Below, one piece after another: positions 4,632-29,527 of a stretch of DNA of 64,000 nucleotides. The position numbers were made by a program, and so were the translations under genes. The notes beneath the pieces are model-generated. The model was given only the letters and a program-made list of their open reading frames with translations. It did no database searches and was not told where the DNA came from. Position 1 is the stretch's first letter. Each line of letters begins with the position of its first letter. Source of the DNA: Oscillospiraceae bacterium (lineage in GTDB: Bacteria > Bacillota > Clostridia > UMGS1810); NCBI GenBank assembly GCA_015068975.1, contig SVJM01000007.1, positions 1 through 64,000 on the forward strand, in the 5' to 3' direction.

Positions 4632-5423
4632 ATGGATAAATTTGTTAATTTCGACCACAAAATCAAAAATATATCTCTCGCAACTTATGTAAAACCCGGC
4701 ACCGGCTCCAGAGAAACAAAGAACAGACCTCACCACGGCATTGTCATGTATATAGATGATGTACATCAGGTTGATTTTGAAAATGACAAGCATATAGAAC
4801 TAAAAAAAGGAAACATTCTATACTTTCCCAAGGGTTCAAATTACGTTGCAAATAAGCCCTTGGAAAGCAAAGGTGTATATGCCATAAACTTTGAATACAT
4901 TTATGATATTGACTTCCCTCCGATTGTAATCAAAACAAAAAACACACAGAAATTCTTAAATTATTTCAAAGAAATCTCCATTATTTACAAAAAACGTTCT
5001 CCAGGATACCAAAAGCAATGTACAGCAGTACTTTATAATATATTTGCTCTTCTGGAATATGAATATAAGCTTGGATACGTACCTGAAAGCTTATATGTAT
5101 CAATCTCACCTGCTATAGAACATATTCATCTTAATTATATAAGTGAAAACATAAACATTGACCATCTTGCTTCTCTATGCAAAATAAGCACAACATACTT
5201 TAGGAGAATATTCAACCGCATCACCGGCATATCCCCAAAGAAATATATAATGCAGTTAAAGATGAACTATGCCGCAGAACAGATTCTTGCAAATGAGCAT
5301 ATTAGTGATATTGCTTATGAGATTGGATTCAATGACAGTGCCGCTTTTTCAAAAGCATTTAAACATTATCACGGTGTTACCCCAAGCGAATATAAAAATC
5401 AGAAAAGATTGGAAATAAATTAA
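4632..5423 (+). CDS. AraC-family transcriptional regulator
   Basis: The protein has 263 residues. An N-terminal cupin-like sensor half is followed by two helix-turn-helix motifs in the last 100 residues (ASLCKISTTYFRRIF and AYEIGFNDSAAFSKAFKHYHGVTPSEY). I chose the ATG at 4632 because AAAGGAG sits just upstream and the resulting N-terminus matches the other two AraC proteins here. A longer frame upstream has no ribosome binding site and would swallow the promoter. It is divergent from a GH10 gene and probably activates it in response to a sugar ligand. It is a paralogue of the regulators at 22250 and 26420. Confidence 0.9.
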   Translation: MDKFVNFDHKIKNISLATYVKPGTGSRETKNRPHHGIVMYIDDVHQVDFENDKHIELKKGNILYFPKGSNYVANKPLESKGVYAINFEYIYDIDFPPIVIKTKNTQKFLNYFKEISIIYKKRSPGYQKQCTAVLYNIFALLEYEYKLGYVPESLYVSISPAIEHIHLNYISENINIDHLASLCKISTTYFRRIFNRITGISPKKYIMQLKMNYAAEQILANEHISDIAYEIGFNDSAAFSKAFKHYHGVTPSEYKNQKRLEIN

Positions 5424-5457
5424 AAAGGATTGTAAATTTGACTTTACAATCCTTTTT
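5422..5457. terminator. bidirectional terminator between araC and manA
   Basis: A perfect 15-bp stem (5422-5436 with 5443-5457) has a 6-base loop. It is A-rich on one side and T-rich on the other, so it can end transcription from either strand. It separates the convergent AraC gene and 13-gene operon. Confidence 0.9.
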
Positions 5458-5459
5458 AT

Positions 5460-6446
5460 TTAAGGCTTACATATAAACGCTGTTGCACTGCCCTTTATAT
5501 CAAGTGTTTTTTCATTTTCAGAAATAAATATTCTGTCCCCTGCTTTTAAATTAATTCCGTTTATGATTATCTCTCCTTCCGTGACAATCATAATGCCATA
5601 AGAATCAAGGTTTAATGTATAATCACCGCTTACTGTTACTTTTGAAAAGCGGAATTTATCTGTAATATTATTATCAACGATTATCTCAAGACATTCGTCT
5701 TTTCTTTTTGGCTCGGAAAAATACGCTTTTTTTGTCTCTTCTTCACTCATTCCGTCATAGGAAAAAACATCAAACATTTTTTCAAATCCGAGTCCACCGT
5801 GGAGTTTCACTTCTGCAAGAGTATTTCCTGAAGGAGTAACCCTCTCGGGAATAACCATAAGGTCTGTAGGCTCCTGAAGTTCACAAAGGAAACAGTCTTT
5901 GCCTATAGCGTGAGGGACTCCTCCCGCTACAAATATAAAATCACCTTTTTTTACATCAAATCTGTGAAGTGCGTCAAGCATACCTTCTATGTCCTGACGT
6001 TCAAAAAGGTCTTTCCATTTCTCTTTGGTAATACCTTCCTTAAAGCCGATATACACATAACCGCCGTCATTTAAGATATACCAACACTCGGTTTTTCCAA
6101 AATCTGAATCAAAATATTCCCTTGCACACTCCACTGTAGGATGCGCCTGGATAACAAGTCTTTCGGATGAGTCAAGAAGTTTGAAAAGAAGGGACATTTT
6201 TTCTCTCTTTCCTATCATCTCTTCTTTGTTTTGTTCGATTATATCCTTAAGAAATCTTCCGTCTTCAGTTTCTGTCAGACCTTCATTTGCCACATCTCTT
6301 CCCGGATTGAAGGCTGTGGTCACAGAGCCAAGCCAGTCTTCAGGGAAGCGGTTTGTATCAGAGAAGTTCTGATTATTTAATTTATCAAGGTTATCCCCAC
6401 CAAGATATGCACGATACACTCTTGTGGGTTTTAGTTTATATATCAT
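5460..6446 (-). CDS. manA: class I mannose-6-phosphate isomerase
   Basis: The protein has 328 residues. It would interconvert mannose 6-phosphate and fructose 6-phosphate in the cytoplasm. The type I phosphomannose isomerase cupin fold is marked by the metal-site segment VIQAHP near residue 100, HRFDVKKGDFIFVAGGVPHAIG (split here: HRFDVKKGD, GGVPHAIG) and CELQEPTD. The length is typical of the short Firmicute form. It is the last gene of the operon, and its start overlaps the end of the EtfBA gene by 11 bases, implying translational coupling. Linked to NagA and NagB, it would deliver fructose 6-phosphate to glycolysis. A different hexose-phosphate substrate cannot be excluded. Confidence 0.9.
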   Translation of the reverse strand: MIYKLKPTRVYRAYLGGDNLDKLNNQNFSDTNRFPEDWLGSVTTAFNPGRDVANEGLTETEDGRFLKDIIEQNKEEMIGKREKMSLLFKLLDSSERLVIQAHPTVECAREYFDSDFGKTECWYILNDGGYVYIGFKEGITKEKWKDLFERQDIEGMLDALHRFDVKKGDFIFVAGGVPHAIGKDCFLCELQEPTDLMVIPERVTPSGNTLAEVKLHGGLGFEKMFDVFSYDGMSEEETKKAYFSEPKRKDECLEIIVDNNITDKFRFSKVTVSGDYTLNLDSYGIMIVTEGEIIINGINLKAGDRIFISENEKTLDIKGSATAFICKP

Positions 6447-7806
6447 ATATATCCTCCCAGTTTGCCACTATGCCATAGTCTGCATACTCAAATATACGTG
6501 CATCCTTATTGGGATTTATGGCAATGATTGTATCGCTTCCTTCTATTGCAGAGGTATGATGCACCGCACCGGATATTCCTATAGCAATATATATCTTAGG
6601 GCTTACGGTCTTTCCTGTAAGTCCTATCTGATGCTCATATGGTGCCTTATTCATATCCACAAGACCTCTTGATGCACCAAGCTCCGCTCTGATCTTTTTT
6701 GCAAAGTCAGATACACTGTCCATTATATCCGCTACCCCTTTACCACCTGATACTATTATATCTGAGGAGTTAACTTTTGTCCTTACTGTAGCCATTTGAG
6801 GAGTTGTAAGACACTTAATCTTAGCATATATGTTTCCCCCTTGTGCAGGTCGAAACATAAAGAGAGTATCACCATTACACTCCAGATGAGTACAGTCTGC
6901 GCAAAGTCCCGTATCAAGCTTTGATGCTACAACGGGAGCAGTTTTTCTTCCCCAAAGGTCTGCATTCCAGAGAATCACCTGTGGCTTTTCTGCCAGTGCT
7001 CTCATGCATATCTCATCAGGTGACTTTTCTTTTATCACAATCACATTTTCTGCAATTTCCGATGCCTTATGTGCTACTTCATCACCAATAGCCCATACTG
7101 AATGAAGCTTTTGTCCTGAATATGTATTTTCTTCTTTTTCTTTAGATTTGCTTTTAAGCTCATTTATTAAAGGTATAAGCTCAGTCTTTGTGATGAACTT
7201 ACACTTTCTTTTACCTGTTTCATTTTCGAAAGTCTGAATAACTCTTGTAGGAGAACCGGCAAGACCGCACTTTGAAGTATCACATTCAATATAATCATTA
7301 TCAAATACTTCCACATTGCCAGCTTTTGAAAACAGAGAAGGAAACCTTAATATATATCCCCTTTCTACTGTTACAAGTGCAGGTAAATCCACCATCTCTT
7401 CTCCAAGTCTTGTGATGCAGCTTACATTACTATCTGACACTTCCACCTTCATAGCATTTGTGATAAGATTTATACCCAATTTATCAGAGAGCATAGGTCC
7501 CACCTGTGCAGTGTCACCATCAACAGACTGTCTTCCGCAAAGGATCAGGTCATAGTCAAGTGTATTTATGTATGATGATAGTATATATGATGTGGCAAGT
7601 GTATCAGACCCTGCAAACACACTGTCAGATATAAGGTGCACCTTAGCACCAAGCCTTGTGAGAGGCAGAAGTGCATCCTTAGTACTCTCAGGTCCCATAG
7701 ATATAACTGTCACATCATCAGAAAGAGAAAATGCACATTCAAGTGCAGATTCGTCAAATGGATTTATATCACCTTTTATTACTTTTACACAAACAAGAAT
7801 TTTCAT
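6436..7806 (-). CDS. fused electron-transfer flavoprotein EtfB-EtfA
   Basis: This is a single 456-residue chain. Residues 1 to about 220 are EtfB (KILVCVKVIKG, ILCGRQSVDGDTAQVGP). From about 232 onward it is an EtfA-like part with a shortened first domain, then the C-terminal FAD-binding domain (IVSGGKG, GASRGLVD, GLTGKTV at 395-401, YIAIGISGAVHH). It would shuttle electrons from the FAD dehydrogenase of the same operon to NAD, ferredoxin or another acceptor. The ATG at 7806 overlaps the stop of the FGGY kinase. A leading TTG in the same frame is not needed. Separate EtfB and EtfA would total about 580-600 residues, so this fusion is compact. The ETF assignment is solid. Whether it bifurcates electrons is inferred. 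Confidence 0.88.
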   Translation of the reverse strand: MKILVCVKVIKGDINPFDESALECAFSLSDDVTVISMGPESTKDALLPLTRLGAKVHLISDSVFAGSDTLATSYILSSYINTLDYDLILCGRQSVDGDTAQVGPMLSDKLGINLITNAMKVEVSDSNVSCITRLGEEMVDLPALVTVERGYILRFPSLFSKAGNVEVFDNDYIECDTSKCGLAGSPTRVIQTFENETGKRKCKFITKTELIPLINELKSKSKEKEENTYSGQKLHSVWAIGDEVAHKASEIAENVIVIKEKSPDEICMRALAEKPQVILWNADLWGRKTAPVVASKLDTGLCADCTHLECNGDTLFMFRPAQGGNIYAKIKCLTTPQMATVRTKVNSSDIIVSGGKGVADIMDSVSDFAKKIRAELGASRGLVDMNKAPYEHQIGLTGKTVSPKIYIAIGISGAVHHTSAIEGSDTIIAINPNKDARIFEYADYGIVANWEDIYDI

Positions 7807-9278
7807 CAATATTCTCCGTTATATATAGGTTCAAGTGCTTTTTGCACTGCTTTGTATTTCTTAAAAAGCTTAAGATATTCTTCTCTGTTTTCTTCATTTG
7901 GTATAGTTTCCGACACTACTTCATTGCATATTTCAAGTGCAGACTGGAAGCTGTCAAATACACCTGCTGCAACTCCTGCAAGCATAGCAGAGCCAAATGA
8001 AGAATCAGCATATTTCATTTCTACAAGCTTTATTCCAAGTGCATCAGATACCATCTGTCGCCACAGTGGGCTTTTGCCACCGCCACCTATGATAGATGCA
8101 TATGAATTACACTCAATATTCTTTTCGTCAAGACACATCTTACAGTCAAGCATACTCATAGTTACACCCTCAAGCACACTTCTTGCGAAATGTCCCTTGG
8201 TATGTGATGCTCTCACACCTACGAAATCTGCACAAAGGTTTGGATTTGCATATGGTGTAAGCTCACCGTTTAAATATGGATGAAATACCATCCCGTCGCT
8301 TCCGATTGGTATGGTTTCTGCAAGGTTATCAAGCTCTTTGTAGTCTTCACCGAAGGTATCCCTGAACCATCTGTATGATGCAGCACATGATTTGGTAGCA
8401 GTACCGGGATAGAAAAGACCATCCATAATGTGTGAATAGTTAATAAGATTTACATCAGGATAAGGCTTGTCTGTAATGACACATATTCTTCCTGCAGTTG
8501 CAAGCTTAAGTGTCATTTGTCCTTTATTTACCGCACCTGAAGCAAATACCTCCATGGCAGTATCTGTAGTACCGCAAAATACTAAAGTCCCTTCACTAAG
8601 TCCTGTAAGAGCTGATGCTTCCTTTGTGATACGTCCTGCCTTGTCGGTAGGTTTAACTACTTCAGGCATCATATCTGATGATATATCAAGTATATCAAGA
8701 AGTGTTTCACTCCACTGCATACTATTTATATCAAACATCATACTTCCTTCTGCTTCTATGTAATCTGTCACATAGTCACCTGTAAGGACATGTCGCACAT
8801 AGTCTTTTGCAAAAAGGATTTTTCTTACCTTTGCCCAGTTTTTTGGCTCATTATTCTTTATCCACATAAGCTCAGGAAGTGACCATATGGTATCTGCCTT
8901 ATGAAGCACCTGTCTGTCTATTACATCTTCAAAATTTTCCCTAAGATATTTAACTTCTTCTTTGCTTCTTGTATCTGTCCAGTATATTGCAGGACGGATA
9001 ACATTGAAATCCTCATCCATTATAACCGCTGTATGAGTAGCCGCATCAAGACTGATAGCAAAGATATCTTCAGGATTGATGCTACTTTTATTAAGTACAC
9101 CTTTTATATTTTCTACAGTTGCCATCACCCAGTCAGAAGGATTTTGCTCTGCATAGCCGGGCTTTGGATAGTTTGTAGGGTATTCGCAAGTATTTGTAGC
9201 AACAATCTCCCCTTTTTCACTAAGCAGTGTTGTCTTGGAGGCACCACCTCCGAAATCTATTCCCAATAAATATTTCAT
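7806..9278 (-). CDS. FGGY-family carbohydrate kinase (xylulokinase-like)
   Basis: The protein has 490 residues, usual for the family. It has the N-terminal ATPase motif LLGIDFGGGASKTT, the substrate-loop segment YWTDTRS, and the C-terminal signature GGGGKSPLWRQMVSDALG followed by GSAMLAGVAAG. It would phosphorylate a pentose, ketose or polyol with ATP in the cytoplasm. Xylulose is the closest general match, but FGGY specificity cannot be read reliably from motifs. It sits between NagB and the EtfBA fusion, with its stop overlapping the next start. It may supply the sugar phosphate cleaved or isomerised by neighbours. Confidence 0.85.
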   Translation of the reverse strand: MKYLLGIDFGGGASKTTLLSEKGEIVATNTCEYPTNYPKPGYAEQNPSDWVMATVENIKGVLNKSSINPEDIFAISLDAATHTAVIMDEDFNVIRPAIYWTDTRSKEEVKYLRENFEDVIDRQVLHKADTIWSLPELMWIKNNEPKNWAKVRKILFAKDYVRHVLTGDYVTDYIEAEGSMMFDINSMQWSETLLDILDISSDMMPEVVKPTDKAGRITKEASALTGLSEGTLVFCGTTDTAMEVFASGAVNKGQMTLKLATAGRICVITDKPYPDVNLINYSHIMDGLFYPGTATKSCAASYRWFRDTFGEDYKELDNLAETIPIGSDGMVFHPYLNGELTPYANPNLCADFVGVRASHTKGHFARSVLEGVTMSMLDCKMCLDEKNIECNSYASIIGGGGKSPLWRQMVSDALGIKLVEMKYADSSFGSAMLAGVAAGVFDSFQSALEICNEVVSETIPNEENREEYLKLFKKYKAVQKALEPIYNGEY

Positions 9279-9305
9279 ATTTCACTCCTATAAATTAACC
9301 AATAA

Positions 9306-10103
9306 TCAAAATAATCCTTCTGCAATTTCTTTACATGCGCAAAACTCTACATTCTCACATCTTTTCAAAAGGCTTGCAGGTATTGCCGCCTGAACTTCAT
9401 CAAACAAAACATGTTTTACTATACCATGCTGCCAAGGTCTGTTAAGAGCAATATATATACGCTTTGAAGCTAAAATCTGTTTCATACCAACAGTAATACA
9501 CCATTCTGGCATACCTCTTAAATCGCCTCTCTGGTAGCCATAGGCATTTATGGTTTTTGTTTCTCTTGATATAGGAAGAACTCTTGTACCAAGAGATGCA
9601 AATTCATCTACAGTAACATTTTCACCCGGTTCTGGCGGTTCATTAAACGCAATATGTCCATTGATACCAAGACCCCCAAGACAAAGATCAACTCCGCCAA
9701 GCTCAGCTATTAGTTTTTCATATTCTTCTTCCTTGCAGGGTTCAGGAAAAAACCTTTGGTTTTCGGGCATTACAAGTTCACTGTCCACAAGCTCATAAAA
9801 CTCCTTATTCATACGGTAATGAAAACTTATAGGATCATCATAGTCTACCGATTTATCAGGAGTAAGAAGATACTCATCCATATTAAAAAACCATACATTT
9901 TTAAGCGATACTTTTAGCTGATTTACAAGTCTCGCTAAGATTGGATACTGTTGAGTTGGGCCAACAGGAACAATCATAACTGTTTTTTTGCCCAATGAAT
10001 TATTTTTCATAATTTCTTCGAGCATAACAAGTGCCATATCAAAATAGACATCCCACTCATCGTCTACAATTTTAAAGTTTATATTTTCGATTTTTCTTTC
10101 CAT
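9306..10103 (-). CDS. nagB: glucosamine-6-phosphate deaminase
   Basis: The protein has 265 residues. It would convert glucosamine 6-phosphate to fructose 6-phosphate and ammonia. The fold markers are VPVGPT (phosphate loop), NMDEYL with the candidate proton-abstracting Asp at 76, and GLGINGHIAFNEP with H150 and E155. In E. coli the residue before Gly-His is Asp; here it is Asn (N148). A tryptophan-rich loop near residue 200 replaces the usual allosteric-region sequence. With NagA just upstream it makes a standard N-acetylglucosamine 6-phosphate pathway. A relative acting on another amino sugar is possible. Confidence 0.85.
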   Translation of the reverse strand: MERKIENINFKIVDDEWDVYFDMALVMLEEIMKNNSLGKKTVMIVPVGPTQQYPILARLVNQLKVSLKNVWFFNMDEYLLTPDKSVDYDDPISFHYRMNKEFYELVDSELVMPENQRFFPEPCKEEEYEKLIAELGGVDLCLGGLGINGHIAFNEPPEPGENVTVDEFASLGTRVLPISRETKTINAYGYQRGDLRGMPEWCITVGMKQILASKRIYIALNRPWQHGIVKHVLFDEVQAAIPASLLKRCENVEFCACKEIAEGLF

Positions 10104-10132
10104 TTTCTTCTCCTATAATTATAAATACAAGT

Positions 10133-11812
10133 CTACTTATTTTTTATTCTGTTTAATGTTTCTATAACTACGGGACCGTTGGGATTGTTCTGCATTTCAA
10201 AATTCACCTTTGATAAAAACAGTTCGTAGTTTGCTTTTTCATACTCTATATCGCATAGTTGCGCAATGATTCTGGTTGCTCTGTCAATGAGTTTTTTGTT
10301 TGAAATATTGACATATACCATATAATTTCCACGGATTCTGCCCATCTTTGCCATGGTAATAGTGGACATAGTATTAATCATTATTTTCATTGCAATATGT
10401 TCAAATATATGCAATTTTGTCTGCGGAATGTCCTTACTTACACTGGAAAGCGTCATTACTGTACAAGTTTCAAATGCTTTGGCTTGCTCATAAAACTCAT
10501 CAGGAACTTTGTCGTCAAGTCCAATCCATGTTGCCAGTGTATTGTCACCCTCACGTTCTGCATTTGACTCGTAACCGATTTGAAATTCATATAATGCTTT
10601 GCAGTCAATTTGCGGAATTTTTTGTATATCTGCTTCCGTTATACCTATTTTTCTGTAATCTTCTGCAGTATAATTTATACATCTTGGAGAACGCTCAAAG
10701 CATTTTTCCCACGCTTCTTCGGTATTGAGCGTAGGATTCTTTACAAAAGACCACGATGGTACTGCATTTATCATCGACTTCGGTTTGAAAGGTGGAACGC
10801 AAAATGTAGGTCCTCTTTCAGTTGTATCAGCAAGAACGTCAAGCAAATATTCATCGGCATAATAAGTAATAAGTCCATTCTTTTCATATAATTGACATTC
10901 TGTTTCTGCTTGAGTTTTTATAGTTTCTACTACTGTATCATCAGAAACAGCAATAATGCATTTTTTGAAATCGGTGGATAATTGATTTTTATGTGCATCT
11001 TTGTTTATATCAGAATCAGAAATAATTTCCGACAAGCACATTTCGAGGCAAGATGCTATAATTGCCTGCTCTATTGTTGATGATTGCATTCTTGATGAGC
11101 CGGTAACAGCCATACCACCGCATTTCATATAAATCGCATTACAATTTGAATGACCGAAAACATCTCTTGCTCTGTCAAGTTTTTTCATAACCGGCATCGG
11201 ATCGGAACATACAATCATCCATACTTTTGCACCATCGGCAAGAGCTTGCTTTGCTGTTCCGAGAATTGATGTTGTTTCACCTGTTGCCGTAACACCTACA
11301 AGAATATCTTTTTCGCAAAGGCATAAATCTTCAGCCTGCTTTGCCCCTAATTCAATGTAGTCTTCAAATGATTCAACTGCACGGATAATAGTGTAGTCAC
11401 CGCCGGTCATCAAAGAAATAACTTTATCTTCATAAGCAGATAAATCCATTCCTGTTTTACACAAATCGGCAATAGCGCATCTCCAGGAGTTTTCAAGACG
11501 CATAGCAAGTCGTCCGGTAGAACCACAACCCGAAACAACAATTCTTCCACCGTTTATCAGCGAAGAAAGAACATTTTCATAAAACTGGTCAAAGTATTCA
11601 CTGTGAATAATTTGATTATATACATCTGCTAAATCCAAATCAACATCTAATATAGATTTTATACCGGCTTTTGTGTCCTTGACGGTTATTTCACCCAGAT
11701 GCGCTGTTTTAGGATTAGGCAACTCGGCTTCAACGAAACCAAGACGGTATTCTTTTTCGTTTTCTAGAAACTCTTTTGATCTTTGCAAGGCTTTTTCTTC
11801 AAGATTAGTCAT
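10133..11812 (-). CDS. MurQ/GCKR-like double-SIS protein (N-acetylmuramic acid 6-phosphate etherase family)
   Basis: The protein has 559 residues, roughly twice the usual MurQ length of about 300. The N-terminal half carries the sugar-phosphate SIS motifs VVSGCGSTGRLAMRLE and VGVTATGETTS, then MTGSSRMQ-type residues (GSSRMQSSTIEQAI). The C-terminal part ends with the MurQ-like block MGRIRGNYMVYVNISNKKL (19 residues). A large middle segment (about 270-480) holds a second SIS-like domain. MurQ cleaves the lactyl ether of MurNAc 6-phosphate, while the related GCKR family binds hexose phosphates as a regulator. Both roles are possible. The start at 11812 follows GGAGGG. Confidence 0.78.
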   Translation of the reverse strand: MTNLEEKALQRSKEFLENEKEYRLGFVEAELPNPKTAHLGEITVKDTKAGIKSILDVDLDLADVYNQIIHSEYFDQFYENVLSSLINGGRIVVSGCGSTGRLAMRLENSWRCAIADLCKTGMDLSAYEDKVISLMTGGDYTIIRAVESFEDYIELGAKQAEDLCLCEKDILVGVTATGETTSILGTAKQALADGAKVWMIVCSDPMPVMKKLDRARDVFGHSNCNAIYMKCGGMAVTGSSRMQSSTIEQAIIASCLEMCLSEIISDSDINKDAHKNQLSTDFKKCIIAVSDDTVVETIKTQAETECQLYEKNGLITYYADEYLLDVLADTTERGPTFCVPPFKPKSMINAVPSWSFVKNPTLNTEEAWEKCFERSPRCINYTAEDYRKIGITEADIQKIPQIDCKALYEFQIGYESNAEREGDNTLATWIGLDDKVPDEFYEQAKAFETCTVMTLSSVSKDIPQTKLHIFEHIAMKIMINTMSTITMAKMGRIRGNYMVYVNISNKKLIDRATRIIAQLCDIEYEKANYELFLSKVNFEMQNNPNGPVVIETLNRIKNK

Positions 11813-11859
11813 AATGCCTTCCCTCCGCATAGTAAAATAGTTATTAAATTCATTGAGCG

Positions 11860-13026
11860 TTAGTTTTTTAGTATTTTTCCGTTTTTTATAACATTATTAA
11901 TTTTGAGATTAGTATCAAATATAACCACATCAGCCAAAAGACCGTTTTTTATACAGCCTCTGTCTGTCATTCCCATGATTTTAGCAGGGCTTGAAGTTAA
12001 TAATTTTACTGCATCTAAAATAGAAAAATCAAAATAATTAACAAGCCTTTCAAGCATCATAGCACCTGTTGCTACACTGCCGGCAAAACGGGTTCTATCA
12101 GGAAGTTTTGCAACACCATCTTCAATTATAACAAGATTTTCCGGAACCTTTTCTCCAAGATAACTTTGTTTATCATTGGTTCCTGCAGGTCGAAGTGCAT
12201 CTGAAACAGCGCAAACCTTGTCTATACCCTTTATTTTTACAGCAAGTTTCATTGCATCTTTAGCGACATGCATTCCATCAGCAACAAGCTCTAGTGTTGT
12301 TTCATTGCTTAAGTATGCCGCTTCAACTATTCCTGCAGTTACTACCTGACCGATTTTTCTAATCGTCGGTGTTACACAGTACATATGAGTGATATGAGAA
12401 AATCCATTTTTCAACCATTTCAATGCAACATCACTTGTAGCATCGCTATGACCAATAGAAAGATGTACCCCGTTATCGCACATTTTTCTTGCAAAACATT
12501 CCATATTATCAAGCTCAGGTGCGGCAGTTATTCTTTTTATAACTCCGCTTCCAATGCTCAACAACTGTTCTATCTCTTCATTTGTAGGAGCATGAAGAAA
12601 CTTTTCGTTATGTGCACCCTTTTGAGCCACTGACAAATAGGGACCTTCTAAGTGAACACCATAAAAATTCGTGCAAGATTGTGCATACTTTTTATAACAT
12701 TCTATCATTTTAAGTGTGCTTTCAAAATCAGCAGATACTGTTGTTGGAATAATTGTGGTTGAACCATTTTTCAAGTGCACATCTGATATGGCTTTAAAAG
12801 CTTCCTCTGTGCTATCCATAAAATCAAAACCGCCACCACCATGAAGATGAATGTCAATAAATCCAGCTGATACATAATTATTATCTGCATCATAGATTTC
12901 ACAACCGTCCGGAAGTTTGCCGGAAAATGATGTATCGATAATTTTATTATCTTTTATAAGAAGATTTCTTTCAAAAATACCACTATCAAGTACTGCTTTT
13001 GCATTTTTTATAAGAAAATAACCCAT
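11860..13026 (-). CDS. nagA: N-acetylglucosamine-6-phosphate deacetylase
   Basis: The protein has 388 residues, normal length. It is an amidohydrolase with the metal-binding DIHLHGGGG motif near residue 60, EGPYLS near 130, GHSDAT and SHITHMY (His ligands), and VSDALRPAG (catalytic Asp region). It would remove acetate from GlcNAc 6-phosphate to feed NagB. The ATG at 13026 was chosen because TTGAGGT lies just upstream. The TTG four codons earlier is part of that ribosome binding site. The order NagA, MurQ-like, NagB points to amino-sugar or peptidoglycan-sugar use. Confidence 0.9.
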   Translation of the reverse strand: MGYFLIKNAKAVLDSGIFERNLLIKDNKIIDTSFSGKLPDGCEIYDADNNYVSAGFIDIHLHGGGGFDFMDSTEEAFKAISDVHLKNGSTTIIPTTVSADFESTLKMIECYKKYAQSCTNFYGVHLEGPYLSVAQKGAHNEKFLHAPTNEEIEQLLSIGSGVIKRITAAPELDNMECFARKMCDNGVHLSIGHSDATSDVALKWLKNGFSHITHMYCVTPTIRKIGQVVTAGIVEAAYLSNETTLELVADGMHVAKDAMKLAVKIKGIDKVCAVSDALRPAGTNDKQSYLGEKVPENLVIIEDGVAKLPDRTRFAGSVATGAMMLERLVNYFDFSILDAVKLLTSSPAKIMGMTDRGCIKNGLLADVVIFDTNLKINNVIKNGKILKN

Positions 13027-13034
13027 ACTATACC

Positions 13035-13685
13035 TCAATTGTATTTTATCTGATAATTTTCACCGGATATTCCGGGATATACACCCTTTTCTACAAGTGC
13101 ATTATTGTCCTTATGACAAATTACCCATTTGTTGTTTTTAAACAGTAATCTGTCACCTTTCTTTCCATCAAGCAATTCATTTGTCCCCTTCGGAAGCATC
13201 ACAATCGCTCCAAAGCCATTATCATTCACCTGACATGGAGTAAAGTGAAGTGTGGTTGCAAACACCTCTACCACATCACCTTCTTCAAGATAAAAGGCTT
13301 TGATATTTGATGAATCGAAATTATCTCCATCCATTTCACATCTCAGTCCAAGAAGAAGTACAACAGGTGTTATAGCAACATTGATTTCTGATGAATTGTG
13401 ATATTCAAGAGCATTAAGGTAACTGTTGTATCCTCTTACCATTCCTGCCTGACACTTTAGTCCACCCATAAGCATAATAGACAAATCCTCAAAAGATTTT
13501 TCTTTTTCGAGAATATTAATGCTTGGTTCGTAAAATGCTCCCTTATCGGGCATAGAAACATTTTTTGCTGTCTTTACTATATCTTTTGAATCATATTCAA
13601 TTTTTCTTCCATAATTTTTAAACTCATTGTCATTTACAGAAAAGAACTGAATTTGTGGGTTAAGTTCACGCAATTTGTTTATCAT
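13035..13685 (-). CDS. DUF4867-like protein
   Basis: The protein has 216 residues and a mostly beta, cupin-like character (MLMGGLKCQAGMVRG, YLEEGDVVEVFATTLHFTP). I recognise it as probably DUF4867, a Firmicute family often found in sugar-catabolic operons. No enzymatic function is established. The ATG at 13685 follows GAGAGGAAG. Translation upstream of it only reads through the end of the epimerase-like gene. It sits between NagA and the epimerase-like gene, and an isomerase role would fit. The fold comes from sequence texture rather than motifs, so the function stays open. Confidence 0.65.
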   Translation of the reverse strand: MINKLRELNPQIQFFSVNDNEFKNYGRKIEYDSKDIVKTAKNVSMPDKGAFYEPSINILEKEKSFEDLSIMLMGGLKCQAGMVRGYNSYLNALEYHNSSEINVAITPVVLLLGLRCEMDGDNFDSSNIKAFYLEEGDVVEVFATTLHFTPCQVNDNGFGAIVMLPKGTNELLDGKKGDRLLFKNNKWVICHKDNNALVEKGVYPGISGENYQIKYN

Positions 13686-13698
13686 ACAAATCTTCCTC

Positions 13699-14553
13699 TC
13701 AGAATGTAATCTTGTGAATATGTGAAGCACATCCGTCTTTTTTCAGACAATTTATGCCGTCTCTTTTGGTAATGTCATAATCTCCATCCTCGAAGCTTCC
13801 CATACCGCACCAGGGCTCAATGCAGATGTACTCTGCATCTTTGATTGTCCATATTACAAGATAAGGATGATCTTTAAATTCCACACTGATTTCTTCGCCT
13901 GATACATCATTTTTAAGTGTTACCTTATCTGACTTGAGAGAAGAAAAGATAACAGAATCAAAGTCAAAAAGATCGTAAGAAAGTTTAAGTTTATCTGTAT
14001 TTTCTCCAAGAGAAATACAACGTCTTGATATTAAACCGTCCAAAACAAGGTTTGACAGAAGGTTCTCCTTCTTATCAAACAAAAGTGTATAATTTCCTAT
14101 ACCACCGGGGCAAGAGTATGCCTCGTGTGAGCCTACAGAATAATACATTGGTCCGTCAGTAAGGTTTGATACCTTATATTCCACACTTAGTTCAGTGTCA
14201 TTTAACGTGTATATAATACGAAATTCAAAGTCAAATGGATATTGCTTTTTCGTTTCTTCATCAGATGAAATCATAAACACAGCCTGAGTCCGGGAATTAC
14301 TTTCAACCTTAAATTCTGATTTACGTGCAAAGCCGTGTTTCTCTATAGAGTATTCCTTGCCAAGATATGTATATATACCATCCTTCAATCCCCCACACAA
14401 AGGAAACAAGACAGGGGCTTGTCCCGCCCAAACGGACGGGTCCCCCTGCCATAACAGTTCTTTGCCATATTTTTTTACACTTGTCATCTGTGCACCCATT
14501 AAGGATATGGTCACAGACATTATGTCATTGGAAAGAATTATTTGTTCAACCAT
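13699..14553 (-). CDS. aldose 1-epimerase-like protein (galactose mutarotase superfamily)
   Basis: The protein has 284 residues. It belongs to the galactose-mutarotase-like beta-sandwich superfamily. The pattern is an N-terminal SVTISLMGAQMTSVKKYGKE segment (20 residues), an LFPLCGG loop, a central GSHEAYSCP His motif and a late CIEPWCGMG motif with the expected catalytic Glu. It would interconvert alpha and beta anomers of a sugar or sugar phosphate. Its start overlaps the end of the IolB-like gene by 16 bases. This group (LacX-like) often accompanies galactose or tagatose phosphate operons. The substrate is not resolvable here. Confidence 0.82.
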   Translation of the reverse strand: MVEQIILSNDIMSVTISLMGAQMTSVKKYGKELLWQGDPSVWAGQAPVLFPLCGGLKDGIYTYLGKEYSIEKHGFARKSEFKVESNSRTQAVFMISSDEETKKQYPFDFEFRIIYTLNDTELSVEYKVSNLTDGPMYYSVGSHEAYSCPGGIGNYTLLFDKKENLLSNLVLDGLISRRCISLGENTDKLKLSYDLFDFDSVIFSSLKSDKVTLKNDVSGEEISVEFKDHPYLVIWTIKDAEYICIEPWCGMGSFEDGDYDITKRDGINCLKKDGCASHIHKITF

Positions 14554-15323
14554 TTATGTTCCTCATCAGTGGTCATATAAAAACCTCTGTCCTCTCCTGC
14601 CATAATCCATAAATAATAGTTGTCATACCCGGGTGCTGCATGGAATGGATGATATCCTCTTGGGATTTCTACGAAATCACCTGACTTAACAGTATATGTT
14701 TCGTCGATGTCCCCTTCCATTGTATATACCTTCTGTATACCGAAGCCCTGAGGCTCTTTGAATTCATAATAGTAGATTTCTTCTGTTGCAGCTTCTGTAG
14801 GCATATTGTCATCATCGTGCTTGTGTGGAGGATAGCTCGCCCACTGACCGCCTTTTACAAATGCCTCACCGATATAGAGCATATTTGCATCCACTCTTTC
14901 ATCAAGAATGAAGTGTGCCTCTCTCTCCCAACCGGGCTTGCCAAGATTTTTGATAACAACATCTTCAGGATTGATAATAGCAGGCTTATATGCCTTATCT
15001 GAAGGAGATTTGGATACTGCTATACTTACTTCGCCTACTGCTTCTACGGTAAATGGTGTATTGGCAGGTACATAAATACATGTAGCAGGTCCGTCAAACA
15101 CATCTTTTCTCTTGCCTGCATTTTTAAACTCAAATCCTTCGCCGTATACATTACATTTACCGCCAAGAATCACAAGAGCATATTCCTTATTTTCTTCTCT
15201 GTAGGATTTTTTGTCTCCGTCAGCTAAACGAAGCATATCCATTTCTACCTTTACACAGAAGCTGTCTTCTGCTTTGTATATTTCTGATTTGCCAAATTTC
15301 TTATTCCAGGATCTTTTATACAT
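14538..15323 (-). CDS. IolB-like 5-deoxy-glucuronate isomerase
   Basis: The protein has 261 residues, matching IolB length. It is a double cupin with the IolB signature: YPPHKHDDDN with two metal-binding His, EEIYYYEF with the metal Glu, DETYTVKSGD, and RGYHPFHAAPGYDNYYL with the last His ligand. IolB interconverts 5-deoxy-D-glucuronate and 5-dehydro-2-deoxy-D-gluconate. The inositol genes IolD, IolE and IolG are absent here, so the substrate may be another uronate-like or deoxy sugar. It overlaps both neighbours. The family call is strong. Its reaction in this pathway is inferred. Confidence 0.85.
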   Translation of the reverse strand: MYKRSWNKKFGKSEIYKAEDSFCVKVEMDMLRLADGDKKSYREENKEYALVILGGKCNVYGEGFEFKNAGKRKDVFDGPATCIYVPANTPFTVEAVGEVSIAVSKSPSDKAYKPAIINPEDVVIKNLGKPGWEREAHFILDERVDANMLYIGEAFVKGGQWASYPPHKHDDDNMPTEAATEEIYYYEFKEPQGFGIQKVYTMEGDIDETYTVKSGDFVEIPRGYHPFHAAPGYDNYYLWIMAGEDRGFYMTTDEEHKWLNK

Positions 15324-16227
15324 CTGTTCCTCTCTCCTTTAAAAATTCAATAACATCATCATATGAGGGAACTGCACTTCTTGCTCCCTTTTTTGTGCAT
15401 TTAAGTGCTGAAACCGCACTTGAAAATACACACGCCTTATAGTAATCATAGCACTTTGCCATACAAAATGCAAATGCACCGTGAAATACATCACCTGAGC
15501 CGTTGGTATCCACTGCATCTACAGTAAATGCCGGATAATCCTTCATAGCATTTCCGTCATAGATTACACCACCCACTTTGCCTCTGGTGATCACTACAAC
15601 TTCAGGGGAATATGTTTCATAAAGCCACTTAGCCGCTTCGTATACATCATCTTTTCCCGAATGTGCAAGACTGAATTCTTCACTTGGGATAAGTATATCC
15701 GTAAGCGAGAGGAGATCTTCTATCCCCTCATAAAGCCCGCCTGCATCATAGAGAACCTTTGTTCCATTTTCTCTTGCAATCTTTGCACCTTCTACTGCTG
15801 CAGACATTTCGTTTCCGTCTACCATAAGTACATCTGCCTTGGCAATTTGCTTTTTTGCATCAATTGTAAGCTTGTATGGTGGTATGTCTCCCTTATGAAA
15901 AACACAGGTTCTGGAAGCAGTCTCACCGCTTAACAGTACAAATGAAGAAAAGGAAGTGCATCCGGGATAAAGGGACACATACTCAGTAGATACATTGTAT
16001 CTTTTCATATCATCCATAAGAAACTTACCTGCATTATCATCAGTAAGTACACCGATATATGCCACCTTTTCGCCAAGCTTTGATGCGGCAACAAGACCTG
16101 TTGCACAAGGTCCGCCACCTGAAATGATGGTACTTTCTGCTCTTAGCTTTGTATCTTCAGAAGGGTAATGTGATACACTGATAAGGGTATCACACACATT
16201 GGCTCCTATTCCTACGATTTTGTTCAT
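15316..16227 (-). CDS. PfkB-family sugar kinase
   Basis: The protein has 303 residues. The N-terminal ribokinase-fold motif GGGPCATGLVAASKLG and the C-terminal anion-hole/catalytic motif DTNGSGDVFHGAF mark a PfkB kinase. The catalytic base is the Asp in GSGD. Between an IolB-like isomerase and a class II aldolase, it would fill the IolC position, phosphorylating the keto-sugar before aldol cleavage. Its start shares the last base of the aldolase gene. Other PfkB substrates such as tagatose 6-phosphate remain possible. Confidence 0.87.
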   Translation of the reverse strand: MNKIVGIGANVCDTLISVSHYPSEDTKLRAESTIISGGGPCATGLVAASKLGEKVAYIGVLTDDNAGKFLMDDMKRYNVSTEYVSLYPGCTSFSSFVLLSGETASRTCVFHKGDIPPYKLTIDAKKQIAKADVLMVDGNEMSAAVEGAKIARENGTKVLYDAGGLYEGIEDLLSLTDILIPSEEFSLAHSGKDDVYEAAKWLYETYSPEVVVITRGKVGGVIYDGNAMKDYPAFTVDAVDTNGSGDVFHGAFAFCMAKCYDYYKACVFSSAVSALKCTKKGARSAVPSYDDVIEFLKERGTDV

Positions 16228-17069
16228 TATTCTGCCTTTCCGTCTGCGCCAACAAGTCTGATTTTATCCATAGCAAGTTCTTTTACTCTAATGATTGGAT
16301 GCTTCATAAACAAGTCAACTGCAAGACTTCTTTGGGGATCATTAAGGGTTTCTTTTGTACCTTCTGCGAAAGCACAGCAAACATCTGTACCGATGTTCAT
16401 CTTTCTTATACCTGCATTGATTGCGGCTTTTACCTGCTCATCAGGGATACCTGAGCCACCATGAAGTACAAGAGGTGTTCCGTTTGTTGCTTCTCTTATA
16501 GCCTTTACTCTGTCTATATCAAGACAAGGGGTCTTCTTATAATGTCCGTGTGCGTTTCCGATAAGAACAGCAAGTGTGTATACTCCTGTTTCCTCCACAA
16601 ATTTCTTTGCCTCTAAAGGATCGGTAAAATCTCCCATAGAATCGTCATTTACACTTCCTACATGACCAAGCTCACCTTCTACTGCCACACCTGCCGCAGA
16701 GCAAATTTCCACCATATGCTTTGTAATTTCTATATTCTTATCCAATGGATGAACCGAACCATCGTACATAATGCCTGTTGCACCAAGCCTTAAAGCTTTT
16801 ATCACTTCAAGCTCTGATGGTCCGTGGTCAAGGTGAAAGCATACAGGAACAGATGCATTTCTTCCGGCTGTTACTATAGCAGGAGAGAGAAATGCTCCAA
16901 CTTCTTCATTTATAAGTCTTGGATATACCTGAACGATTACAGGAGCCTTAAGCTCTTCTGCCGCCTGGATAACACCCATAAGGGTTTCTGTGTTGTATAC
17001 GTTAAAGGCTGGGATACAGTAGTTTCCCTTTTCTGCCATATGGATTATTTCTTTGTATCCTATAAGCAT
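16227..17069 (-). CDS. class II ketose-bisphosphate aldolase
   Basis: The protein has 280 residues. It has the zinc-dependent aldolase motifs CFHLDHGPS (D81 catalytic, H82 metal), GELGHVGS, GNAHGHYK and VLHGGSGIPDE, then the phosphate-binding NIGTD near the C-terminus. It would cleave a phosphorylated ketose to dihydroxyacetone phosphate plus an aldehyde. Relatives include fructose- and tagatose-bisphosphate aldolases and IolJ. The adjacent IolB-like and PfkB genes favour an IolJ-like role. The start overlaps the Fe-S protein gene by 10 bases. Confidence 0.9.
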   Translation of the reverse strand: MLIGYKEIIHMAEKGNYCIPAFNVYNTETLMGVIQAAEELKAPVIVQVYPRLINEEVGAFLSPAIVTAGRNASVPVCFHLDHGPSELEVIKALRLGATGIMYDGSVHPLDKNIEITKHMVEICSAAGVAVEGELGHVGSVNDDSMGDFTDPLEAKKFVEETGVYTLAVLIGNAHGHYKKTPCLDIDRVKAIREATNGTPLVLHGGSGIPDEQVKAAINAGIRKMNIGTDVCCAFAEGTKETLNDPQRSLAVDLFMKHPIIRVKELAMDKIRLVGADGKAE

Positions 17070-18130
17070 TTAAGAATAGCCTCCTCCAGCTTCATAAGCT
17101 CAATGCCTTCAGGCTTTGTTTCATTAAGCTTGGTATATTCTGCAAATGATGTTGTCACAAGGATTTTTGCATCGGCATTCTTTGCATTGATCCATCTGTT
17201 TTCTGCTACCTTTGTGATGACATTTGGCATATACTCATTCATAATGAGATTTCCTGCAAGCATTGTGTACTGACGGTTAAGAAGCATTTCCTTAACTGTA
17301 CCGATAGCTGATAAAATATCTCTTACAGGCTCTGTTTCTTCAAGATCTCTTGCAAGGATAGGGCTATCCTGTGGAGTGAATACAAGATCTGTCTTTTTCA
17401 CATTAAGCCTACCATCTTTGATAAGGTCAGAAACAAACTTTGTAAATGTAACCACTTCACACTTAAGCTCTATTCCCCACTCCTTGTACTCTCTCATCAT
17501 CACCTTTGCATCCTGTGGATCATAGCAGATAACTTTCTTATAGTTATTGAGAACCTTTGCACAGTTTTCCATAACTGCCTTTGTTTCTGCTGCAGCACCG
17601 ATTAAGAAGTCCATTGAATAACCGCTGTTTGGTTCATCCTTAAGGATTGTGAAGTCCACATTTGCCTTCTTCAATACTTCTGCCGCTTCCTTTGCGCAGC
17701 CCTTTGCCCTTGTATCTTCACCGATAAAGAAAAGTGTATCTGTCTCAGGGAAATCAGGGATTTTGTTCTCATTTTCCACACCATATATATTTCCCTTTTC
17801 CATAAGGTTGTTTACCATGGTCATAATATAAGGAGGAAGCTTGCCGTCAAGTGCCGCACCAAGTCTTGCTTCTTTTGTAAACATTACAGGATCCCATCCT
17901 GTAACACAGTCTGTCATACATCCGCCACAAAGTGAACATTCGTATACATTGTTAATAATATCGTCAGAATATTCCACTGCATCTCTTGCCACAAGTGACA
18001 ATCCAAGTGCTCTGGCACGAGCTGTATTTCTTTCAAGTCCTGTAGCGTTTCCTATCGGACATACATGATGACACATCCAGCAGAAACGGCATGAATCTAT
18101 ATGTTCTTTTGCTTTGTTTGAAAAATTCAT
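17060..18130 (-). CDS. GlpC/GlcF-like Fe-S subunit with degenerate CCG domain
   Basis: The protein has 356 residues. It has two 4Fe-4S ferredoxin motifs at the N-terminus (C14, C17, C20, C24 and C65, C68, C71, C75). The remainder resembles the cysteine-rich CCG domain of GlcF, GlpC and heterodisulfide reductase-like subunits, but its expected cysteines are missing: TPQDSP replaces the usual HDPC segment and YTMLAG the CCG segment. It probably carries electrons between the FAD dehydrogenase encoded just upstream and the EtfBA fusion. It is cytoplasmic, with no signal peptide. Confidence 0.85.
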   Translation of the reverse strand: MNFSNKAKEHIDSCRFCWMCHHVCPIGNATGLERNTARARALGLSLVARDAVEYSDDIINNVYECSLCGGCMTDCVTGWDPVMFTKEARLGAALDGKLPPYIMTMVNNLMEKGNIYGVENENKIPDFPETDTLFFIGEDTRAKGCAKEAAEVLKKANVDFTILKDEPNSGYSMDFLIGAAAETKAVMENCAKVLNNYKKVICYDPQDAKVMMREYKEWGIELKCEVVTFTKFVSDLIKDGRLNVKKTDLVFTPQDSPILARDLEETEPVRDILSAIGTVKEMLLNRQYTMLAGNLIMNEYMPNVITKVAENRWINAKNADAKILVTTSFAEYTKLNETKPEGIELMKLEEAILKCL

Positions 18131-18145
18131 AACATCTACCTCCTA

Positions 18146-19570
18146 TTAAAGTCCCAGCTTAAACGGATTCATGATTCCGTTAGGGTCAAGCTGCTTTTTG
18201 ATACCTTCGAATACCTGCATTGCAGGGCCATACTGTTCTTTCATAAGTCTGCCAAGCTTGATGCCAACGCCGTGGTGATCGTTTACCACACCGCCATTTT
18301 GAAGGGCAGTTCTCACACCACAGTTCCAGATAGCCTGATGAAGTCTGAATGCTTCGTGAGGATCCTTCGGTACATCCTTGCCGTCAACGATAAATCTGTC
18401 ATAAATCATACAACCCCACTCGTACCAGTGTGAGAAGTGAGCAATAAATTTTGCCTGTGGGAAGTTGGTTTCAATAGCCTTTTTCATTTCCCAGTATATC
18501 TTTTCTATCTTGTCATATGGTGCGATAGTATCCATTGTACCGAAGCACTGAGGGATATCCATCATATGTCCGGGATAGAAGAAGGTGATTTTTTCTTTCC
18601 ACCATTTTTCACCATATTCAGAGCCTAAGTCCTCTGCACCGTACTTTGCAAATGTTTCAAGAAGGATTTTCATCTCAAGGTCTGCCATTTCCTTAACACC
18701 TTCGATGGCAATATTCATAAATGCACCCTTCTTTTCCACACCTACAATCTTCTTGATAAGAGAAGCTGTTTCAGCTTCGTCATAAAGACGCATTACAGAT
18801 GGTTTGAATTTCTGCAGAAGCTCTCTTCCTGCGTTGAACGCATCTGTCATATTGTGGAAAAGAAATCCTCTGAATTGTCTTGATTCAGGCTGTTCGTAGA
18901 TTCTCATCTGTGCCTTTGTCATAACACCAAGAGTACCTTCAGAGCCGATAAATATCTGATTTAAGTCAGGGCCTGCTGCGTGCTTTGGTGCAGGAGAAGT
19001 TTCGATAATATCTCCGTTTGGAAGAACAACTTCCATCTGAAGTACCATATCATCGATTTTGCCATACTTTGTTGATGAAACACCGATACCTCTGTGTGCA
19101 AGGAAACCTCCTACCGTAGAGCATGTAAGTGATGAAGGATAATGCATTGTGGCATAGCCCTTTTCGTTTGCAGCCCATTCAATATGTTTATAGATAGCAC
19201 CTGTGCCACATTCTATGTACATACCCTGTTCGTTTACATCATAAATCTTGTTCATTCTCTTGGTATCAAGTACAATACCACCGCATACAGGAATAGCACC
19301 ACCCTGAGTACCACCGCCTGCACCCCATGTTGTTACAGGGATCTTATAATAGTTTGCAATCTTCAATACTGCAGAAACTTCCTTTGCATCCTTTGGTGCA
19401 ACAATGAAGTCACCTTCAGGCATACGGAGTCCTCTGTCTGCCCACATTCTGGAAAGCCAGAAGTAGTCAACACTGTGGGTAAGCTTGTCGATAGTTCTTG
19501 TGGAGCAGTTTTCTCTGCCTACTGCATCCTCTAATTCGGTTGCAATAACGTCAAATAAAAAGTCTGTCAT
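18146..19570 (-). CDS. GlcD-type FAD-linked dehydrogenase
   Basis: The protein has 474 residues. The N-terminal PCMH-type FAD-binding domain (TWGAGGGTQGG, CSTVGGFLAHRGIG, GSEGTLGVMT) is followed by a vanillyl-oxidase/GlcD-like cap with the active-site VNDHHGVG (H432) and the closing DPNGIMNPFKLG. Relatives oxidise 2-hydroxy acids (glycolate, lactate) or act on alkyl-glycerone phosphates. As first gene of an operon containing an Fe-S partner and an ETF, it is likely the substrate-oxidising subunit of an ETF-linked complex. The substrate is inferred to be a sugar-derived hydroxy compound. Confidence 0.88.
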   Translation of the reverse strand: MTDFLFDVIATELEDAVGRENCSTRTIDKLTHSVDYFWLSRMWADRGLRMPEGDFIVAPKDAKEVSAVLKIANYYKIPVTTWGAGGGTQGGAIPVCGGIVLDTKRMNKIYDVNEQGMYIECGTGAIYKHIEWAANEKGYATMHYPSSLTCSTVGGFLAHRGIGVSSTKYGKIDDMVLQMEVVLPNGDIIETSPAPKHAAGPDLNQIFIGSEGTLGVMTKAQMRIYEQPESRQFRGFLFHNMTDAFNAGRELLQKFKPSVMRLYDEAETASLIKKIVGVEKKGAFMNIAIEGVKEMADLEMKILLETFAKYGAEDLGSEYGEKWWKEKITFFYPGHMMDIPQCFGTMDTIAPYDKIEKIYWEMKKAIETNFPQAKFIAHFSHWYEWGCMIYDRFIVDGKDVPKDPHEAFRLHQAIWNCGVRTALQNGGVVNDHHGVGIKLGRLMKEQYGPAMQVFEGIKKQLDPNGIMNPFKLGL

Positions 19571-19629: not shown

Positions 19630-19658
19630 ATAATATCACATAATGAAAATAATTTCAA
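19630..19658 (-). promoter_or_regulatory. promoter of the 13-gene operon
   Basis: On the minus strand there is TTGAAA (19653-19658), a 17-base spacer and TATTAT (19630-19635). The -35 overlaps operator candidate O2, and O1 lies downstream of the start point, a layout expected for repression. Confidence 0.65.
19644..19657. promoter_or_regulatory. candidate RpiR operator O2
   Basis: TGAAAATAATTTCA is an imperfect copy of the O1 palindrome. It overlaps the operon -35 and lies upstream of the regulator's own -35, so one site could serve both directions. Confidence 0.55.
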
Positions 19659-19734: not shown

Positions 19735-20571
19735 ATGGACAAAACAACGCTTAATATTAAACTCTTGTATGACAAAATGGGAAAAGCAGAAAAACATATA
19801 GCAGACTGGATTTTTGATCATCCGGGTGAGATAATATCTTTGTCTATTGTAGATCTTGCAGAGAAGTGCGGCTGCGGTGAAGCCACAATCGTAAGATTTG
19901 CAAAGAGACTTGGATTTAATGGCTTTCAGGAGCTTAAGTTCGTTCTTGGGAATCAGGCAGGTAATAGTCAGATAAGTACAAATATCAATCCTGATGATGA
20001 TGCTTATACCATTTATGAAAAGGTCTGCAACGACATATATCTTTCATTGGAAAAGACCAAATCTTCCCTTGACAGAGAAGCTCTTTCCCTTGCCGCAGAC
20101 AAGATATGCAAAGCAAATAAAATAGTTATATTCGGTCTCGGAAACTCTGCATCTGTTGCTACAGACTTAAGTCACAAACTGTTAAGAGCAGGACTTAATG
20201 CGATAGCATACTCTGATAACCATATGCAGGTAATTGCCGCAAGTCATCTCAAAGAAGGCGATGTTGCCATAGGCATATCACATTCAGGCTCATCAAAGGA
20301 CATTGTTGAAGCACTGAAAACCGCCAGAGAACAAGGTGCCTCAACAATATCTGTTACAAACAGAGGTAAGTCCCCTATTCTTAAACATTCGGATATAGTC
20401 TTGCAGACCTCTGCAGACGAAACTCAATATTCTATCCTTGCTCTTAACTCAAGAATAGCTCAGCTTGCCATTGTAGATACCCTGTATTTCTACATAGTAT
20501 ATAACCGCTCGGAAGAAGCACAGGAATCTATCAAACAGACAGAGAAATCGTTGCTTACAAAAAAATACTAA
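19735..20571 (+). CDS. RpiR-family transcriptional regulator
   Basis: The protein has 278 residues. The N-terminal HTH (about 1-76, with EKCGCGEATIVRFAKRLGF, 19 residues) is followed by a SIS phosphosugar-binding domain (about 110-250, with IFGLGNSASVATDLSHKL and IGISHSGSSKDIVEAL). Such regulators sense sugar phosphates. It is divergent from the amino-sugar/FAD operon, and two matching palindromes lie between them. It probably controls that operon in response to a phosphosugar intermediate such as an amino-sugar 6-phosphate. The ligand is inferred. Confidence 0.92.
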   Translation: MDKTTLNIKLLYDKMGKAEKHIADWIFDHPGEIISLSIVDLAEKCGCGEATIVRFAKRLGFNGFQELKFVLGNQAGNSQISTNINPDDDAYTIYEKVCNDIYLSLEKTKSSLDREALSLAADKICKANKIVIFGLGNSASVATDLSHKLLRAGLNAIAYSDNHMQVIAASHLKEGDVAIGISHSGSSKDIVEALKTAREQGASTISVTNRGKSPILKHSDIVLQTSADETQYSILALNSRIAQLAIVDTLYFYIVYNRSEEAQESIKQTEKSLLTKKY

Positions 20572-29460: not shown

Positions 29461-29527
29461 ACTAAACACCTCTCTTATAATGAAACCTGAAATAATTACA
29501 TTATAAATTAATTATCTCTGTATCTTC

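Follow-up and report, generated by a model that had tools for sequence, protein, structure and literature searches.

The window analysed here, positions 1 to 64,000 of contig SVJM01000007.1 from an Oscillospiraceae bacterium (GenBank assembly GCA_015068975.1), carries an operon of 13 minus-strand genes (5460-19570) in which a redox module, composed of a flavin adenine dinucleotide (FAD) protein, an iron-sulfur (Fe-S) subunit and an electron-transferring flavoprotein (Etf), is joined as a conserved unit to an IolB-like isomerase, a PfkB-family kinase and a class II aldolase, as a first-pass annotation made from the sequence alone had proposed. The FAD protein resembles alkyl-dihydroxyacetone phosphate (DHAP) synthase (AGPS) and is conserved at about the level of EF-Tu. 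We tentatively propose that the operon encodes a linear catabolic pathway that degrades a free sugar and oxidises its phosphorylated form before aldol cleavage. A further suggestion, and a more doubtful one, is that gut Clostridia conserve energy at this oxidation, upstream of aldol cleavage, by an unrecognised and widespread pathway in which the near-invariant AGPS-type flavoprotein would drive a fused, possibly bifurcating Etf. A sugar route of this kind in uncultured bacteria of the herbivore gut bears on the fermentation of plant matter and the fate of its electrons; the hyperconserved FAD protein offers a defined target, and its AGPS-like active site, set among redox partners, would put the fold to a new use.

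Conservation of the operon and its FAD protein

A scan of the FAD protein against 84,980 species genomes gave 359 confirmed stretches, and the best 80 of these 359, which were kept, are nearly all from uncultured Clostridia of the herbivore gut or rumen. Gene frequencies were counted over 37 operons of herbivore-gut Clostridia with enough flanking sequence. The genes for the FAD protein, the Fe-S subunit, the IolB-like protein and an FGGY kinase are each found in all 37, those for the PfkB kinase and the aldolase each in 36, and the fused Etf gene in 35, the remaining two operons possibly extending past the stored flank. A gene of the arabinose/fucose-isomerase fold, the usual first enzyme and one that the first-pass annotation had missed, is present in 25 of the 37 and absent from the operon in the window. 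Accessory genes encode a DUF4867 protein (18/37), a mutarotase (9/37), NagA and a NagB-like protein (6/37 each) and a GCKR-like protein (1/37). Because of these frequencies the core is taken as eight genes; the Nag genes are passengers, and the place in the pathway that had been given to them is not upheld.

The core gene order, on whose conservation in relatives the first-pass proposal hung, is kept across families, and since the same order recurs in dozens of genomes the operon represents more than a chance association. Several loci have a second arrangement, in which FAD-FeS-IolB-FGGY-ETF is followed by isomerase-aldolase-PfkB. Among 391 genomes of the class, the FAD protein (at least 83% identity) occurs in 25 (~6%), the operon-type IolB also in 25, and both together in 24 of the 26 carrying genomes (Fisher p ~5e-36); the other two are cases of an incomplete genome or a contig edge. 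One locus (L093) presents a complete Clostridia-type operon in a genome labelled Planctomycetia, through either transfer or mis-binning.

Within this unit the FAD protein stands apart, being 81-99% identical over 87 operons, whereas every partner drops to 34-48%. The window and locus L176 illustrate the point: their FAD proteins are 99.2% identical, and the fourfold-degenerate sites of the two genes agree only to 39%. Recent transfer as the source of this conservation is rejected, given saturation at silent sites and the much greater divergence of the partner genes within the same operons; the sameness of the protein therefore reflects purifying selection. In 12 of 15 pairs, drawn from six genomes with clean EF-Tu genes, the FAD protein is more conserved than EF-Tu. 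Operons that share one FAD type vary in the types of aldolase, IolB and isomerase that they carry, and the FAD step may be fixed, with the other steps adapted to the sugar.

The FAD protein, its partners and the sugar enzymes

The FAD protein (18146-19570; operon genes are all on the minus strand) belongs to the AGPS/D-lactate dehydrogenase (D-LDH) superfamily of FAD-dependent oxidoreductases (PF01565 + PF02913, FAD_binding_4 + FAD-oxidase_C), its best solved relatives being AGPS (143 bits), D-LDH (115) and LctD (100). It had been named GlcD-like, but action on a hydroxy acid in the manner of GlcD is not supported: the HxGDGN/GEHG metal-site motifs of D-LDH and GlcD are absent, with AHFSHWYEWG and NDHHGVG in their place, and the motif is of the AGPS type. 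An Arg aligned with AGPS R419 and the SHxY and HHG motifs are shared with AGPS, an enzyme that binds DHAP-type phosphates. AGPS R515, which presumably serves the fatty alcohol, is aligned with Met, and the operon protein also differs from AGPS in having redox proteins as partners, so that it is probably not an ether-lipid synthase. The lactate dehydrogenase-Etf complex LctBCD (7qh2) similarly couples a FAD dehydrogenase of the superfamily to Etf; the operon differs from it in the absence of GDGN/GEHG, the presence of an Fe-S subunit, the fusion of the Etf and the context of sugar enzymes. That Fe-S subunit, a core 4Fe-4S dicluster protein (17060-18130; PF13183/PF13534), always adjoins the FAD gene and is weakly GlpC-like (NF008369, 28.5 bits).

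A link between the FAD protein and the FGGY kinase, also missed in the first-pass annotation, emerges from more distant genomes. FAD relatives (29-41% identity) in Mesorhizobium, Labrenzia, Paracoccus and Shinella adjoin an FGGY kinase that scores 324-367 bits with the window FGGY protein, where E. coli XylB reaches 205; other FAD relatives adjoin glycerol-kinase-type or other FGGY proteins. Because their relatives adjoin in these alphaproteobacteria, the FAD protein and the FGGY kinase probably act consecutively. In Mesorhizobium the gene after the FAD relative looks, by eye, like an Fe-S subunit that has lost its cysteines. The core FGGY kinase of the window (7806-9278) is xylulokinase-like, scoring 388 bits with the XylB model TIGR01312 (cut-off 380); its identity to E. 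coli XylB is only 28%, and its loop is THTAV, not MHGAT. Other Clostridia (loci L184 and L185) group an FGGY kinase with two FAD proteins, of which one is AGPS-like, and with two Etf pairs; this cluster may be related to the operon's pathway.

The Etf, which the first-pass annotation had given as EtfBA, is a single core open reading frame (ORF) of 457 amino acids (6436-7809) in which EtfB and EtfA are fused, with beta and alpha domains and an FAD-binding domain (two PF01012 stretches + PF00766); the fusion is seen in several families among 60 relatives. For both halves the nearest solved relatives are Etf chains from electron-bifurcating complexes, and the fused protein is possibly bifurcating as well. 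Two genomes of the window's family (locus L021) have a homologue of the Etf fusion, 58-59% identical, that lies away from the operon and adjoins another fucose-isomerase-like gene.

Among the sugar enzymes, the core aldolase (16227-17069) is of the class II ketose-bisphosphate type (PF01116, 287 bits; TIGR00167 above cut-off), and the core PfkB-family kinase, a predicted ketose kinase (15316-16227; PF00294), has as its best PDB relative the sulfofructose kinase YihV (132 bits versus 88 for ribokinase), to which it is closer than to IolC. The core IolB-like protein (14538-15323), a KduI/IolB-type candidate aldose-ketose isomerase, scores 245 bits against a cut-off of 205 with the model TIGR04378. 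Its metal site (H167, H169, E182, H225) is kept in 59/59 operon rows and 6/6 inositol rows, and the HKHD and GYH residues are retained; nonetheless it belongs to a distinct subfamily, the operon proteins forming a clade apart from six inositol IolB proteins (support 100/100 at a point where long branches meet) with six fixed differences that include R to G and N to W.

The arabinose/fucose-isomerase-fold protein yields a confident model (predicted local distance difference test, pLDDT, of 92) that matches L-arabinose isomerase with a template-modelling (TM) score of ~0.8; by sequence it is distantly SftI-like (112 bits versus a cut-off of 700). Four other operons with a gene for a type I phosphomannose-isomerase-like (ManA-like) protein also have no fucose-isomerase-like gene within reach, and in the window the ManA-like protein (5460-6446; PF21621 and PF20511 above cut-off) may stand in for it. 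In other Bacillota (loci L170-L174), ~40% relatives of the fucose-isomerase-like protein have as neighbours, with families judged by eye, transketolase halves, FGGY kinases, or DhaK and transaldolase, hinting at further unassigned sugar pathways.

A proposed pathway and its alternatives

In the linear pathway that we propose, an unphosphorylated sugar, most probably a pentose or hexose of plant origin, would be imported by transporters encoded elsewhere and isomerised from aldose to ketulose by the arabinose/fucose-isomerase-fold protein in most genomes and probably by the ManA-like protein here, with the mutarotase and the DUF4867 protein assisting. The ketulose would be phosphorylated by the FGGY kinase, and the phosphorylated sugar oxidised by the AGPS-type FAD/Fe-S pair, with the fused EtfBA accepting the electrons and handing them to NAD+, and perhaps to ferredoxin as well. 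A carbonyl shift by the IolB-like enzyme would then give a ketose, to which PfkB would add a second phosphate before the class II aldolase splits it, releasing DHAP together with a second aldehyde. The gene set, its conservation and the protein families can be read directly from the sequence; the order of steps, the placing of oxidation after phosphorylation, the coupling of electrons, including the energy coupling that the first-pass annotation had suggested, and the substrate are inferred.

Several points weigh against this proposal. The window's genome (89% complete) has no fucose-isomerase-like gene, and no transporter or glycosidase is recurrent or conserved in the sampled operon flanks. 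A FAD relative in Methylobacterium adjoins PdxA and a four-carbon acid sugar kinase, not an FGGY protein, and oxidation before phosphorylation is therefore possible. The AlphaFold model of the FAD protein, built from a shallow alignment, reached a pLDDT of 40 and was not used. Finally, the isomerases and kinases, two of each, could be divided between two arms instead of forming one line. With respect to the substrate, xylose was considered and set aside: the window's genome lacks XylA, yet carriers of the operon are not significantly depleted in it (4/25 versus 101/366, Fisher p 0.25). A replacement of glycolysis was likewise discarded, phosphofructokinase being present in 14/14 operon genomes tested.

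The possibility of two arms is the main rival, although we consider it unlikely. Two converging arms would meet at a ketose-1-phosphate-type compound, which a shared aldolase would split to DHAP and an aldehyde; in one the FGGY kinase and the FAD/Fe-S/Etf proteins would convert a polyol or aldonate, much as GlpK and GlpABC do for glycerol, and in the other the isomerases and PfkB would give the same compound from an aldose or uronate. An FGGY kinase is paired with a FAD dehydrogenase both in GlpK-GlpABC, of anaerobic glycerol use, and in EryA-EryB, of erythritol use; the operon shares this pairing and has an Fe-S subunit too, but its FAD protein belongs to the AGPS/D-LDH superfamily, its carrier is a fused Etf and it has an aldolase branch. 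The alphaproteobacterial FAD and FGGY pair, which occurs without the rest and is clustered with a sugar ATP-binding cassette (ABC) transporter, an Fe-type alcohol dehydrogenase and a short-chain dehydrogenase/reductase (SDR), favours two arms, as do the weakly GlpC-like character of the Fe-S subunit and the second arrangement, where PfkB and aldolase are separable from the FAD-FeS-IolB-FGGY-ETF block. In that arrangement, however, IolB remains in the block and not with PfkB and aldolase.

A variant of inositol degradation, in which IolB, PfkB and the aldolase would process 5-deoxyglucuronate and its products, seems quite improbable. The operon IolB does score above the NCBI IolB cut-off, and inositol operons join IolB, IolC and a class II aldolase, so that the lower inositol pathway (IolB, IolC, IolJ) has the same combination of isomerase, kinase and aldolase families. 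Yet the separate clade and fixed differences of the operon IolB, the nearness of PfkB to YihV, and the addition of FAD/Fe-S/Etf, FGGY and second-isomerase genes all set the operon apart. In agreement with the first-pass annotation, which had reported inositol upper-pathway genes absent, IolD has no match in the window's genome and none above cut-off in 14/14 operon-bearing genomes, in a search whose control gave scores above cut-off in 3/14 known genomes.

Sulfoglycolysis of sulfoquinovose from grass sulfolipid, by a route like the sulfoglycolytic Embden-Meyerhof-Parnas (sulfo-EMP) pathway, is a shade less probable again. Sulfo-EMP and sulfo-EMP2 share with the operon a FucI-type isomerase, DUF4867, a mutarotase, a ketose kinase and a class II aldolase (PMC9594981), DUF4867 having its family context in SftX/SqvB (PMC11968277, PMC9594981). 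The habitat is the herbivore gut, the aldolase is of the SqiA family, and a sulfofructose kinase is the best solved relative of PfkB. But neither the conserved genes nor the families that recur in the sampled flanks include a sulfoquinovosidase or sulfolactaldehyde enzymes, the resemblance of the isomerase to SftI is far below cut-off, and the FAD, FGGY, IolB and ETF genes would be extra, having no role. Nor is the sulfonate pocket kept: YihV N109 and R138, which we take to be its sulfonate-binding residues, correspond to V109 and N139 in the window PfkB.

The presence of NagA, NagB-like and GCKR/MurQ-like genes within the window's operon could instead point to amino-sugar or muramic-acid degradation, with the MurQ-like protein freeing lactate, NagA and NagB processing the sugar and FAD/Etf oxidising the lactate. 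This we regard as the least probable reading, given that these genes are accessory by the operon counts, that the FAD protein lacks the GDGN and GEHG motifs of D-LDH and that the MurQ match is under cut-off. A literature search of open-access papers found no matching pathway, in line with the first-pass statement that none with this exact set was known, though one may be described outside these papers. All parts belong to known families; no description was found there of their combination, of how widely it is spread or of the hyperconserved AGPS-type flavoprotein.

Layout of the operon and its surroundings

The reported co-directional genes are real, adjacent ORFs mostly overlapping or having at most ~30 bases between them. 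From 19570 to 5460 the order is FAD, 4Fe-4S, class II aldolase, PfkB, IolB-like, mutarotase, DUF4867, NagA, GKRP/MurQ-like SIS, NagB-like, FGGY, EtfB-EtfA fusion and ManA-like. The families named in the first-pass annotation match by profile, three genes (ManA-like, DUF4867 and mutarotase) having been left unnamed. Two frequent accessories are a protein of the aldose 1-epimerase (mutarotase) family (13699-14553; PF01263, 100 bits) and the DUF4867 cupin of the SftX/SqvB family (13035-13730; PF16161, 208 bits). NagA, a predicted N-acetylglucosamine-6-phosphate deacetylase (11860-13038), scores 251 bits with TIGR00221 against a cut-off of 226. The names NagB and MurQ/GCKR proved to be loose, since the scores of both are under the family cut-offs: the rare SIS protein (10133-11830; PF22645, 41 bits) reaches 122 bits with the MurQ model (cut-off 168), and the divergent NagB-like protein (9306-10103) reaches 98 bits with TIGR00502 (cut-off 237), its nearest PDB chains being glucosamine-6-phosphate deaminases.

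A divergent gene for a MurR/RpiR-family regulator (19735-20571, plus strand; PF01418 + PF01380), which lies beside 22/37 operons, encodes the probable controller. By consensus scan only, promoter-like sites lie upstream of the operon near 19630-19658, and the operon ends at a strong terminator-like hairpin (5421-5458, minus strand) with a 16-pair stem and a T-rich tail.

Elsewhere in the window, two genes resembling GH10 xylanases (2178-4463 and 23948-26251) lie near AraC-type regulators, in a genome with no detectable xylose isomerase; in one of the two a copper-amine-oxidase N-terminal domain was confirmed. Between the xylanase genes, a minus-strand gene (27217-29469) encodes a glycyl radical enzyme resembling pyruvate formate-lyase. 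At the far end (43399-64000, minus strand) five large paralogues of secreted type, of 989-1219 amino acids, follow one another in tandem, with CBM96 detected in the one tested; together with nearby GH10, GH43, GH28 and SASA-esterase genes they form an island of plant cell-wall degradation.

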